DNA of 37,688 bases from Betaproteobacteria bacterium RIFCSPLOWO2_02_FULL_66_14 (GTDB taxonomy: Bacteria; Pseudomonadota; Gammaproteobacteria; Burkholderiales; SG8-39), in assembly GCA_001770475.1 (NCBI GenBank), contig MERB01000059.1:8955-46642 (forward strand), given 5' to 3'. The first letter of the stretch is position 1. Each line of letters starts with the position of its first letter. Shown one piece after another: positions 1,110-6,875 of this stretch. Both the position numbers and the translations under genes were made by a program. The notes below the pieces were generated by a model. The model did not search any database. It saw only the letters and a program-made list of their open reading frames with translations, and was not told where the DNA came from.

Positions 1110-1910
1110 TTATCCGCGCGACGCAGCGCTGCCGGAAGCGCCGAGCTGCCTCGCGCGCTCGTAGAAGCAGATCGCCGCTGCCGCGGCGACGTTGAGCGAC
1201 TCGCCGCTTCCGGGCATCGGGATCGTGACCCCTTGCGTTGCCGCAGCCGCGAGCGCCGGGCTCACGCCCTGCCCTTCGCCGCCGAATATCCAGCCGACGC
1301 GGCCTCGCAGGTCTGCCTGCTCCAGCGGCAGCCCATCGCGCGCGACGGTACAGATGAGCGTGCCGCCGAAACGCGCGACCGCCTGGATCAGGTCCGCACT
1401 GCTGGCGATGCGAAGCGCGAATTGCGCCCCCATGCCGGCCCGCAGCGCCCTGGGCGACCACGCGTCGGCGCAGCCCGCCCCCAGCACCACGTCGGTCACG
1501 GCGAAAGCTGCCGCGCTGCGCAGAATCGCCCCCACGTTACCCGAGTCCTGCACGCCGTCGAGGAACACGCAGGCCGTGGAATCCCGCGGATCGAAGCTGC
1601 GCTCCGGCAGATCGATTTCGGCGGCGACGCCGACCGGGGTTTCGGTGTCGACGATCGCCGCGAACAGCGAATCGGACAGCACGATCGGCGGGCGCCCGTG
1701 GCGCGCGGCGAGCGCTGCGATTTCGCGTTTCGACTGCCCGCTTTCGCTGACGATCAGCGTCTGCAACCTGCCTCCGCCGTCGAGGCAAGCCGCGACCAGG
1801 TGCAGGCCTTCGATCATCGCGCGCCGCTCGATGCGGCGTGCGCGCCGCGATTCGCCGAGCTTGCGCCAGCGCCGCACGCGAGGGTTCTGACGCGACCCGA
1901 TGATGCTCAT
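1110..1910 (-). CDS. TrmH/SpoU-family RNA 2'-O-methyltransferase
   Basis: Start taken at ATG 1910 (MSIIGSRQNPRVRRWRKLGESRRARR...). SPOUT motifs: FLDGVQDSGNVGAILRSAAAFAV, WIFGGEGQGVSPAL, IPMPGSGESLNVAAAAAICFYE. The 373-aa ORF is an upstream over-extension. Confidence 0.92.
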   Translation of the reverse strand: MSIIGSRQNPRVRRWRKLGESRRARRIERRAMIEGLHLVAACLDGGGRLQTLIVSESGQSKREIAALAARHGRPPIVLSDSLFAAIVDTETPVGVAAEIDLPERSFDPRDSTACVFLDGVQDSGNVGAILRSAAAFAVTDVVLGAGCADAWSPRALRAGMGAQFALRIASSADLIQAVARFGGTLICTVARDGLPLEQADLRGRVGWIFGGEGQGVSPALAAAATQGVTIPMPGSGESLNVAAAAAICFYERARQLGASGSAASRG

Positions 1911-3193
1911 GCGGAATCGAGCGCGCAGGTGCGAAAGCCGGCGAACACGTCGGCGCGATCCGGGAGGAAGAAATTGCGGTAGGTCGAATAGGCGATCCGC
2001 GGAGAAGTCGCGAAGGCGCCGCCCCTGAGAACTTTGTGCGTCCCGAACCACGGCTCGGAGTATTCGCGGTAAGGGTCGGGTGAAAACCCGGGATAGGGAC
2101 CGAAGGGGCTTGCAGTCCATTCCCAGACGTTGCCGATCAGCTGCCGCACTCCCATGGCACTGTCGCCCTCCGGATACGCGTGCACGCTTGCCGGACAAGC
2201 GTGCTGCAGATTGGCGCGGCGTGGCGTCCACGGTTCGTCACCCCAGGGATGGCGGCGCCTGCGTCCGGCGATCGGGTCCCAGCTCGCGGCAAATTCCCAT
2301 TCCGCCTCGGTCGGAAGGCGGCGAGTGGCATAACGGCAATAGGCCCGGGCCTCGAACCAGTTCACGTGGGTTACCGGTTCGTCCGGCGGGAGATCGATCC
2401 AGCGATCGAATCGGCGCAGCTGCCACGCGCCGTGCCGCCGGTTCCAGTAAAGCGGTTGCCGCCGATCCGCCGACGCGAGCCAACGCCACCCCGATTCACA
2501 CCAGAGTTCGCGCCGTCGGTAGCCATCTGCTTGCACGAACGCGGCGAATTCCGCGTTGCTCACCGCGACTCGCGACAGGCGGAACGGCCGAACCCGCACC
2601 GGGTGCGCCCATTTCTCGTTGTCGAAGGCAAACACCGCCGATGGCGCTTCGCCCAGTTCCAGCGGACCGCCCGCGATCTCGGCGTCGCCCGCCCGGAGAT
2701 CGCCGATCGGATGCTCGGGAACCTCCAGCGCGGGCGCCTCGTAGCCAAGCGTCTGGCGCGTGTAGTGAAAGGCCTCGGCGTGCATGTCCTCGTGCCGGAC
2801 CGCGAGCCGCGCGAAGTACGCGTCGTCGCTGCTGCAGCGGGCGGCGAGCCGATCCTCGGTGCGCCTACGGACTTCCTCGCAATAGCGCAGGGTGGCGTCG
2901 AACTCCGGCAGCGGCAGCGTCCAGCGCGTCGCGTGCGGCACGGTGGCCGAGTTGTAGAGCCGGTCGGCCTCGGGCACAATCGATTCGCCTCTCGCGGCGG
3001 AGAACCGGTCTTCGTCGAGACGGCGCAGGCACCAGTACTCCTGAAACCAACCCACGTGACCCACTTCCCAGCGCGGCGGATTGACGATCGCGAGGCGAGG
3101 ACCGAACTCGCGCGCGCCTCCGAGATCGCGTACGAGAATCAGCATTCGCTCGCGCGCCTCGCGCAATTCGGTGGCCAGGGCGGCGCTCGTCAT
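1907..3193 (-). CDS. senA: EgtB-like nonheme iron sulfoxide/selenoxide synthase, probable selenoneine synthase SenA
   Basis: From ATG 3193: MTSAALATELREARERMLILVRDL... with DinB-like N-terminal His motifs (WEVGHVGWFQEYW; RHEDMHAEAFHYTRQTLGY) and C-terminal FGE-sulfatase domain (THVNWFEARAYCRYATRRLPTEAEWEFAA; GNVWEWTASPFGPYPGF; KVLRGGAFAT; RNFFLPDRADVFAGFRTC). Adjacent to a SenB-type glycosyltransferase, which favours SenA over EgtB. Confidence 0.85.
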   Translation of the reverse strand: MTSAALATELREARERMLILVRDLGGAREFGPRLAIVNPPRWEVGHVGWFQEYWCLRRLDEDRFSAARGESIVPEADRLYNSATVPHATRWTLPLPEFDATLRYCEEVRRRTEDRLAARCSSDDAYFARLAVRHEDMHAEAFHYTRQTLGYEAPALEVPEHPIGDLRAGDAEIAGGPLELGEAPSAVFAFDNEKWAHPVRVRPFRLSRVAVSNAEFAAFVQADGYRRRELWCESGWRWLASADRRQPLYWNRRHGAWQLRRFDRWIDLPPDEPVTHVNWFEARAYCRYATRRLPTEAEWEFAASWDPIAGRRRRHPWGDEPWTPRRANLQHACPASVHAYPEGDSAMGVRQLIGNVWEWTASPFGPYPGFSPDPYREYSEPWFGTHKVLRGGAFATSPRIAYSTYRNFFLPDRADVFAGFRTCALDSA

Positions 3194-3226
3194 GGTGATG
3201 ATCCAGTCTAATCGTTTGCACCGGCC

Positions 3227-4189
3227 GTGAAAATCGCGCTCGTCACGCCGGCGCGCGCCGGCGCCCGAAGCGGCAACCGCCACACGGCGCTTCGCTGGGC
3301 CGCGTTTCTGCGCGCTGCAGGGCATCGTGTCACGGTCGCGCAGGGGTGGCGAGCCGATGCGCCGACGGACATGATGCTCGCGCTGCACGCGCGCAGGAGC
3401 CACGCATCGATTCGCGCCTTTCATTCGGCGCACCCGTCGCGGCCCTTGGTTCTGGCGCTCACCGGAACCGACATCTACCGCGACGTCCGCAGCTCGCCGG
3501 AAGCACGCGCTTCGCTCGAAATGGCGAGCCGCTTCATCGTCCTGCAGCCGGAGGCGCTGCGTGAGCTGCCGCAGCGGCTTCGCGCCAGGGCCGGCGTCGT
3601 CGTCCAGTCGAGCGCGACGCGCCTGCGGCATGCGCCCGTGCGTCGCGGTTTTCGCGTCTGCGTGATCGGGCATTTGCGCGAGGAGAAAGATCCCCTGCGC
3701 GCGTTCGCGGCGCTGCCCTATTTGCCGCAGCACCTGGGGATCGAGCTGCTCCAACTCGGCGAGGCGCTCGATCCCGGTCTGGCACGGACCGCGCGATCGG
3801 CCACGCGAGCCGAACCCCGCTATCGCTGGCTCGGCGGACTGCAGCACGCGCGCGCCCTGCGCTGGCTCGCCTCGAGCCACGCGATGGTGATCAGCTCGAC
3901 CATGGAAGGCGGCGCCAACGTCGTTTCGGAGGCGATCCGGATCGGCGTTCCGGTGATCGCGTCCAGGATCCCCGGAAACGTCGGTCTGCTGGGCGCGGAC
4001 TATCCGGCGTATTACCGCACCGGGAACGAGCGCGCGCTGGCGTCTCTGATCCGACGCGCGGCGACGGACCGCCGCTTCTATGGCGGGCTGAAGGCGCGGA
4101 TTGCGCACCTTCGATCGATGGTTGCACCCGAATCCGAGGCGCGGATGCTGCTCAGGGCGCTATTTCGCGGCGATCGCGGCAGCGTTTGA
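3227..4189 (+). CDS. senB: Glycosyltransferase of the selenosugar synthase (SenB) type
   Basis: GTG start. MKIALVTPARAGARSGNRHTALRWAAFLRAAGHRVTVAQ... LALHARRSHASI, LVLALTGTDIYRD, FIVLQPEALRELP; GT4-like C-terminal part (STMEGGANVVSEAIRIGVPVIASRIPGNVGLLG). Matches recalled SenB-family motifs; adjacent to senA. Confidence 0.87.
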   Translation: MKIALVTPARAGARSGNRHTALRWAAFLRAAGHRVTVAQGWRADAPTDMMLALHARRSHASIRAFHSAHPSRPLVLALTGTDIYRDVRSSPEARASLEMASRFIVLQPEALRELPQRLRARAGVVVQSSATRLRHAPVRRGFRVCVIGHLREEKDPLRAFAALPYLPQHLGIELLQLGEALDPGLARTARSATRAEPRYRWLGGLQHARALRWLASSHAMVISSTMEGGANVVSEAIRIGVPVIASRIPGNVGLLGADYPAYYRTGNERALASLIRRAATDRRFYGGLKARIAHLRSMVAPESEARMLLRALFRGDRGSV

Positions 4190-4194
4190 ACGTT

Positions 4195-5088
4195 TCAGGT
4201 CGCGGCAAGGCGCGCCCTGCGGAATCCGATCCATTCGTTCGCAAGCAAGGCCCCCAATACCATGGCGGCGCCCGCGAGCGCCAGCTCGGTCGGCGTCTCG
4301 CCTACCCCGAGCCACACCCAGAGCGGCGCGAGGATGGTCTCGATGAGCGCCAGCAGCCCGATCTCGCTTGCAGGCAGGTAGCGCGTTGCGCGTGTCATCA
4401 GCACGCATCCGAGTCCGAGCTGGACGGATCCCATCGCGGCGAGAAGCGACACGTCGCGCACGCCCGCTTCGAGCGGAAACGCAAACGCTGCCGCCACCGC
4501 CACTGAAATCAGTCCCGCGACCATCACTGCGGGGATCATGTCGACCGTGGCGTGCATCCGGCGCAGGACCACGAGATTCAGTGCGAATGCGACCGGCACG
4601 CCGAGGGCGAGCAGGTTGCCGAGGCTGCGGCCGGCGTCCAGGCCGTCCGCGAACATGAGCACGATTCCGCAAAGCGCGGCCGCGATCGCGAGCCAGGTGC
4701 GCCGCGGGACGCGCTCGCGCAGGAAGATCCAGGCGAACAGCGCGGCGAAGAACGGCCCGGTGCTCATCAGCACGAACGTGTTCGCGGCCGTATTGCGCAT
4801 CAGCGAATGAATGAAGAAGAAGAACGTCGCCGCGAGCAGCGCCCCGGCGAGGATTCCGGCGCCGCCGACCGCCCTGACCCGCGACCACGCCGCGCCGCGG
4901 TACATCACCCACAGGGCGGCGGAGACGAACACGACCATGAACGCAGAGCGCCAGAAGACGATCTCCCAGCCGTCCGTGATGGCGACGCTGCGAACGAAGA
5001 TTCCGCCCGTACTCCAGCAGAGCGCGGCGGCGACCATCAGCAGAATGCCCTTGCGGCGTGCGGCCGCGGATTGAACGAGCGGTTCCAT
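4195..5088 (-). CDS. EamA/DMT-family permease
   Basis: MEPLVQSAAARRKGILLMVAAALCWSTGGIFVRSVAITDGWEIVFWRSAFM... multiple hydrophobic helices; ATG at 5088. Confidence 0.88.
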   Translation of the reverse strand: MEPLVQSAAARRKGILLMVAAALCWSTGGIFVRSVAITDGWEIVFWRSAFMVVFVSAALWVMYRGAAWSRVRAVGGAGILAGALLAATFFFFIHSLMRNTAANTFVLMSTGPFFAALFAWIFLRERVPRRTWLAIAAALCGIVLMFADGLDAGRSLGNLLALGVPVAFALNLVVLRRMHATVDMIPAVMVAGLISVAVAAAFAFPLEAGVRDVSLLAAMGSVQLGLGCVLMTRATRYLPASEIGLLALIETILAPLWVWLGVGETPTELALAGAAMVLGALLANEWIGFRRARLAAT

Positions 5089-5134: not shown

Positions 5135-5728
5135 CTATCCGCGCCCGGCCTCGAGCGTTCGGCGTACCGGCGCAAAGGACCTGCGGTGGACCTCGCAGGC
5201 GCCGAATTGCCCGAGCAGGCGGACATGCTCGCGTGTCGGATAACCCTTGTGGCGATCAAACCCGTAGCGCGGGAAGCGGGCGTGCAGGCGAAGCATTTCC
5301 GCGTCGCGCGCGGTCTTCGCGAGGATCGAGGCGGCCGAGATCGCCGGGTGCAGCCGGTCGCCGTCGACGATCGCGCGGACCCGGCCCTCGATCGGCGGAC
5401 GGTGGCGGCCGTCGACCAGCACTTCGTCCGGCCGCAAGGCAAGGCCTTCCACCGCGCGGCGCATCGCAAGCAGGCTTGCCTGCAGGATATTGAGACGATC
5501 GATCTCCTCCACGGTAGCGAAGGCGATCTGCCAGTCGAGGGCGCGGCCGCGGATTTCCTCCGCCAGGCGCGCGCGCAGCGCCGCGCTCAGCAGCTTGGAA
5601 TCGGCGAGCCCGATGATCGGCTGCGCGGCATCGAGAATCACGGCGGCGGCGAAGACCGGCCCCGCGATCGGGCCGCGCCCGGCCTCGTCGACGCCGCAGA
5701 TCGCGGCGCGCGATTCAGGCGCGTTCAC
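5135..5728 (-). CDS. rnhB: Ribonuclease HII
   Basis: GTG 5728: (M)[31 protein letters not shown]...[21 protein letters not shown]; overlaps the 3' end of lpxB. Confidence 0.95.
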
Positions 5729-6875
5729 CGTCGAGCACCCGCAGTACCGCATCGGCGGCCTTGCGGGCCGTGTCCTGGCGCAGCGTGCGATGAATTTCAT
5801 GGAATCGTTCGATCTGCCGGCGCTGCGCCTCCCCGTCTTCGAGAAGGCTCTTCACCGCCGCGGCGAGCGCCCCGGGGGTCGCCTCGCCCTGGACGAATTC
5901 CGGAATGAATTTCTCGCCCGCGAGGATGTTCGGCAACCCGATCTGCTTCAGGTAAATCATGCGACGCATCATCGCCCAGGTCACGGGCGACTGGCGATAC
6001 GCGATCACCATCGGCGTTTTGACGAGCGCCGCTTCGAGCGTCGCGGTGCCGCTTGCCACCAGCGCGACATCGGCCGCCGCGAGCGCTTCCTGCGAATGCC
6101 CGAACATCAGGGTCACCGCAAGCTCCCCGTCGCCGTGGCGGTGCAGCGCCTCTTCGAGCTGGGCGCGGGTCTCGCGCGTCGCGGTCGGGCAGACGAACGC
6201 AATTCCGGGCAGTTCCTGCTGCAGCAGACGCGCCGCGCGGACGAAGAGCTCACCCATGTAATGCAGCTCGGAGCGGCGGCTGCCGGGAAGCAACGCGATC
6301 ACGGGTCCCGATGCGGGCAGCCGAAGTTGCGCGCGCGCCTGCGCCCGGTCGCTTTCGAGCGGAATCACGTCGGCGAGCGGATGGCCGACGTAGGTCACGG
6401 GCACGCCGAGCTTCGCGTACAGTTCGGGTTCGAACGGGAACAGAGCGAGCAAATGCGTCACTGCGCGCGCGACGCGCCTGGCGCGCCAGGCGCGCCAGGC
6501 CCAGATCGACGGGCTGACGTAATGCACCGTGGGAATCCCGGATGCCTTGAGTCGGAGTTCGAGATCGAGATTGAAATCCGAGGAGTCGATGCCGATGAAC
6601 AGCGCGGGCCGCTCGTCGATCAGCTGCTGCGCAAGGGCCCTGCGCATCGCCGTGATCGCCCGGTACTGCCCGATCACTTCGGCGTAACCACGCACCGCGA
6701 GGCGATCGATCGAGTACAGGCTCCGCAGCCCCCGCTCGATCATCTTCGGGCCGCCGATTCCGGAAAACCGGATTCCGGGGCGTCGCGCGGCAAGCGCAGC
6801 CATCAGGTGAGCGCCGAGCAGGTCGCCCGAGGCCTCTCCGGCCACGATCGCTATGTGGGGCGCCGCCTCCGTCAC
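5715..6875 (-). CDS. lpxB: Lipid-A-disaccharide synthase
   Basis: GTG 6875: (M)[27 protein letters not shown]...FSGIGGPKM...[17 protein letters not shown]...[24 protein letters not shown]. Confidence 0.95.

Follow-up and report, generated by a model that had tools for sequence, protein, structure and literature searches.

The closest described counterpart of the locus studied here is the sen locus of Variovorax paradoxus DSM 30034, in which senC is clustered with senA and senB. In the original discovery, the search for sen loci started from the neighborhood of selD (PMC9814287). Also comparable are OvsA of Halomonas utahensis, a selenosugar-using selenoxide synthase of the ovoselenol pathway, and EgtB of Mycolicibacterium thermoresistibile (4x8b), an ergothioneine sulfoxide synthase.

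We analyzed a 37,688-nt stretch of DNA (the window) on contig C59 of Betaproteobacteria bacterium RIFCSPLOWO2_02_FULL_66_14, whose draft genome (2.43 Mb, 62 contigs) is 86.6% complete, which limits negative statements about its gene content. According to curated models, the window encodes orthologs of V. paradoxus SenA and SenB with the same catalytic residues, and the same route through selenophosphate, a selenosugar, and hercynine would apply. In contrast to V. paradoxus, no senC lies beside the pair, and selD is unlinked, next to mnmH. We estimate a probability of about 0.9 that positions 1907–4189 encode the dedicated half of a pathway to the selenium antioxidant selenoneine, the other half being shared housekeeping.

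Gene organization of the senA/senB locus

The pair and its immediate neighbors are arranged as follows:

1110–1910, minus strand: spoU-type rRNA/tRNA methyltransferase, downstream of senA; a neighbor in many related loci
1907–3193, minus strand: senA-type gene (selenoneine synthase), 428 aa; DinB-like and FGE-sulfatase domains
3194–3226, no strand: divergent intergenic gap between the senA and senB start codons, 33 bp
3227–4189, plus strand: senB-type gene (selenosugar synthase), 320 aa; GTG start; Se-glycosyltransferase, GT-B
4195–5088, minus strand: EamA/DMT-family transporter, convergent with senB; 59 bits with TIGR00950, under the cut-off
5135–5800, minus strand: RNase HII (rnhB), conserved at the senB-side end of the site

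The senA and senB frames are both intact and, as an earlier note on this DNA had described, start head to head, here 33 bp apart; a promoter scan of this gap gave no match to a sigma-70-like promoter. The senA stop overlaps the ATG of the spoU-type methyltransferase in the sequence ATGA at 1910–1907, a detail absent from the earlier note. Given this overlap, the two genes are probably co-transcribed. Core genes surround the pair, as had also been claimed: RatA and SmpB, the spoU-type methyltransferase, RNase HII, LpxB, LpxA, FabZ, LpxD, Skp, BamA, and RseP, all named from sequence.

Among all the loci examined, the EamA transporter separates senB from rnhB in this genome only, and thus is probably not part of the selenoneine pathway. 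We considered it as a selenoneine exporter and dropped the idea for the same reason.

SenB retains its donor and catalytic residues

The earlier reading depended on the product of 3227–4189 lying within the SenB family, and it does: the NCBIfam SenB model TIGR04348 scores 397 bits against a cut-off of 300 (4e-119). The nearest solved structures are four SenB entries (8k5u, 8jjn, 8jjq, and 8fbx; ~1e-64, best 4e-64), and the next match in the PDB, not a SenB, follows at 2e-5. Residues N17, T20, R151, K154, E227, and E235 correspond to V. paradoxus N20, T23, R155, K158, E231, and E239, of which N20, T23, K158, and E231 (PMC10891094) and R155 and E239 (PMC10702425) have been named as donor/catalytic residues. 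All six are invariant in an alignment of 16 sequences, in which the EGGAHV motif commonly has the form found in the window SenB, EGGANV.

SenA differs from EgtB and OvsA in its binding residues

The product of 1907–3193 scores 500 bits with the NCBIfam SenA model NF041186 (cut-off 420; 6e-150) and stays under the cut-offs of the EgtB model TIGR03440 (330 vs 360 bits) and the OvoA model (150 vs 400 bits). It contains an FGE-sulfatase domain and matches DinB_2 weakly. The three histidines proposed earlier as iron ligands of a DinB/FGE-sulfatase enzyme, H46 (in GHVGWFQ) and H134 and H138 (in HEDMH), make up the predicted three-His non-heme iron site and are invariant among 20 aligned SenA sequences.

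The iron site and the overall fold are shared with EgtB, and with 330 bits to TIGR03440 the gene could be read as an ergothioneine sulfoxide synthase that adjoins a glycosyltransferase by chance. We regard this as scarcely credible. Besides passing the SenA cut-off and not that of EgtB, the protein scores in the range of SenA-type proteins (below 360 with the EgtB model), whereas true EgtBs of its relatives reach 408–600. Its pairing with SenB is conserved, and its binding residues are changed: where EgtB has the thiol-substrate Arg (PRASR) and Gln (HEHQH), the window protein carries His and Met, as does the whole SenA/OvsA clade. The column labels of these two positions are presumably one off the published EgtB numbering. 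In a tree of 75 rows, in which the OvsA row was rebuilt from the 8ux5 alignment and represents the triple mutant described there, the window protein, V. paradoxus SenA, and H. utahensis OvsA share one clade of 58 rows (100/99). This clade is separate from that of EgtB, where placement of the window protein would have counted against the earlier note.

The same tree leaves OvsA to be considered: the 9-row subclade of the window protein is firm, and its deep branching relative to V. paradoxus SenA and OvsA is not. OvsA is also the best PDB match by both sequence and fold, slightly ahead of V. paradoxus SenA, so that an OvsA-type selenoxide synthase, which would couple the selenosugar with histidine instead of hercynine and lead to ovoselenol, had to be tested. 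OvsA, too, relies on a SenB-type selenosugar, which counts for this alternative. The fold is no guide to identity: an AlphaFold model (pLDDT 88.6, pTM 0.89) gave TM-scores of 0.89 with OvsA, 0.86 with EgtB, and 0.78 with SenA, which do not discriminate between them, and V. paradoxus SenA lacks a stretch that the window SenA keeps.

The substrate-binding residues do separate the two. Y378, N407, and F408 of the window protein, invariant across the 20 SenA sequences, align to OvsA positions 401, 430, and 431, which are M, Q, and A in the wild-type enzyme (8u41), so that the window protein departs from the histidine type at all three. The PDB description of 8ux5 presents OvsA M401Y/Q430N/A431F as a hercynine-binding variant with selenoneine-biosynthetic activity. 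Furthermore, the WFQE and YSxPWF motifs are common to the window protein and V. paradoxus SenA, whereas OvsA has FFYE and STLQF; no small-molecule N-methyltransferase lies beside the gene, and the genome encodes EgtD. An OvsA-type activity is thus very improbable. With the OvsA and EgtB identities rejected on residues and profile scores, we conclude from sequence comparison that the window protein is a SenA with hercynine as its predicted substrate.

Residues 305–353 of the window SenA form the stretch of ~40–50 residues that is missing in crystallized V. paradoxus SenA and kept in EgtB and OvsA as well; the best-studied SenA is therefore a shortened member of the family.

Selenophosphate and hercynine sources are encoded elsewhere in the genome

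The earlier note had found neither senC nor egtD near the pair and had proposed that selenophosphate and hercynine come from unlinked genes, a proposal that required both sources to exist in the genome. A whole-genome search revealed one canonical selD over the cut-off (424 bits), on contig C13 beside mnmH (tRNA 2-selenouridine synthase), and one egtD, likewise over its cut-off (398 bits), on contig C7; neither selD/senC nor egtD was found on the contig of the window. All four genes thus occur in one genome. Since selD is unlinked and sits beside mnmH, the pair would work like a three-gene senABC cluster without being one.

In this 86.6% complete genome we found no separate EgtB, the sole TIGR03440 match being the SenA gene itself, and no SelB over the cut-off. 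SenA is therefore the only hercynine user found in the genome, and, with a single SelD, MnmH and SenB are the known selenium users found. Three genomes of the same genus (G002, G003, and G004) likewise encode SenA, SenB, SelD, and EgtD without EgtB.

By analogy with characterized homologs, SelD would supply selenophosphate, which SenB would combine with a UDP-sugar (most likely UDP-GlcNAc) to give a selenosugar. EgtD would trimethylate histidine to hercynine, which SenA, a putative non-heme iron/O2 enzyme, would join to the selenosugar; the resulting selenoxide would break down and then be reduced to selenoneine. The single SelD would feed both MnmH and SenB; in these bacteria, one enzyme may provide the selenium for both selenoneine and tRNA selenouridine.

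SenA and SenB might instead work on sulfur, with thiophosphate and a thiosugar leading to ergothioneine by a sugar route; the earlier note had raised sulfur sugars as an example of a differing substrate preference. SenB takes thiophosphate weakly, with a 10–20-fold discrimination against it (PMC10702425), and 8k5i is a structure of SenA with thioglucose. The active-site residues of the window proteins do not bear out such a shift: those of SenA are of the hercynine/selenoneine type, and those of SenB are unchanged. The presence of a canonical selD also argues against it, as does the co-occurrence of SelD with SenA in a survey of this genome and 60 relatives. SelD is found in 25 of the 26 genomes with SenA over the cut-off vs 24/35 others (p = 0.009, with SelD fusions counted as SelD), and EgtD, in favor of the selenoneine pathway, in 26/26 vs 19/35 (p = 2e-5), both by Fisher tests that ignore shared ancestry. 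We therefore hold the sulfur route to be highly unlikely, and the selenoneine route remains the preferred reading.

The selD-unlinked layout is the commonest among relatives

In the same survey, in which adjacency and orientation were read by hand, senA and senB are adjacent in 24 genomes and divergent in every one of them. Seven of them (G006, G010, G030, G039, G046, G057, and G029, the last counted over a contig break) have a SelD-family gene no more than a few kb from the pair. In the other 17, the window included, there is no selD beside the pair, although several contigs are short and linkage past a few kb could not always be judged. All 17 encode EgtD and a SelD-family gene elsewhere, canonical in 14 and solely an oxidoreductase–SelD fusion in three (G024, G035, and G051). 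The locus, which the earlier note had taken to be unusual, is an ordinary instance of the known selenoneine module in the arrangement usual for related bacteria. With selD unlinked in the majority layout, a search for sen genes next to selD would miss many probable selenoneine producers.

The site itself recurs across a further set of 80 loci drawn from GTDB genomes, in the order smpB, spoU-type methyltransferase, senA, senB, rnhB, and lpxB. Of 50 divergent gaps compared, most measure 4–100 bp, and the median is 68 bp. The Burkholderiales-type pairs from metagenome-assembled genomes (MAGs; for example, L113, L115, L116, L123, L129, L172, and L188) share the orientation and short gap of the window; the methyltransferase follows senA wherever the contig reaches, no selD is within reach, and rnhB and lpxB lie past senB in most, the window alone having EamA inserted. 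Unlike in proteobacteria, senA and senB are often co-directional in Acidobacteriota, Poribacteria, Latescibacterota, and Gemmatimonadota. The neighborhood of selD recurs as well, with mnmH beside it in 26 of the 34 loci checked.

SenB genes in genomes where no SenA was found

Sulfuricella sp. T08 (G064 and G049, apparently one genome; locus L005) encodes SenB, SelD, and an OvoA-type protein, and in this 100% complete genome we found no SenA-type protein over the cut-off and no EgtD. The catalytic residues of its SenB are intact in the 16-sequence alignment. SenB and SelD occur without SenA or EgtD in ten more genomes (G063, G068, G069, G072, G078, G086, G088, G089, G090, and G091), most of them MAGs without stated completeness that were reached through their SenB loci. 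The SenB genes for which neither partner was found in the genome are, besides L005, L122, L134, L135, L144, L156, L171, L174, L179, L183, and L184; several occupy the same spoU-flanked site, with senA missing. An OvoA-type protein of 714–878 aa accompanies SenB, with no SenA over the cut-off, in G049, G065, G078, and G089.

In these genomes SenB may be a relic, or the selenosugar may be used differently; their SelD may serve mnmH only. A broader model, which we consider unlikely, would make SenB a selenosugar hub instead of a step in a single pathway, with one housekeeping SelD feeding both senA/senB and tRNA selenouridine; if true, there would be a further selenometabolite, either the selenosugar itself or something made from it. 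Inspection by eye of the genes around six SenB loci that have no senA next to them revealed no common partner gene. Most Thiobacillus-type loci that had appeared to be SenB-only were set aside, as SenA was found elsewhere in the genome; absence beside senB alone therefore means little.

Two loci are less clear-cut. L034 (G052:C2:205522-206529) encodes a SenB-like protein of 229 bits, under the cut-off; its gene is flanked by fabI-like and thymidylate synthase-like genes in a small, 99% complete genome in which SenA and EgtD were not found. At L015 (G020), SenB is divergent with SelD beside it and has no adjacent SenA; another contig of that genome encodes a SenA-like protein of 381 bits, under the cut-off and without a match to the EgtB model, that is possibly a divergent SenA.

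SelD fusion proteins

Loci L213 (G039), L214 (G029), L210 (G024), L211 (G035), and L212 (G051) each encode a long protein whose C-terminal part is a SelD domain, and such a fusion is the only SelD homolog in four SenA-positive genomes (G024, G035, G051, and G039). By architecture they would correspond to the NCBIfam oxidoreductase/SelD-related fusion (TIGR04369); NCBI's model names such proteins SelD-related, not SelD. In the fusions, the active-site motif of SelD reads GGCGAK, with its Cys and Lys retained. The fusions may stand in as the SenC of these pathways. In two genomes the fusion lies beside senB, and in G039 it forms one cluster with senB, senA, and egtD.
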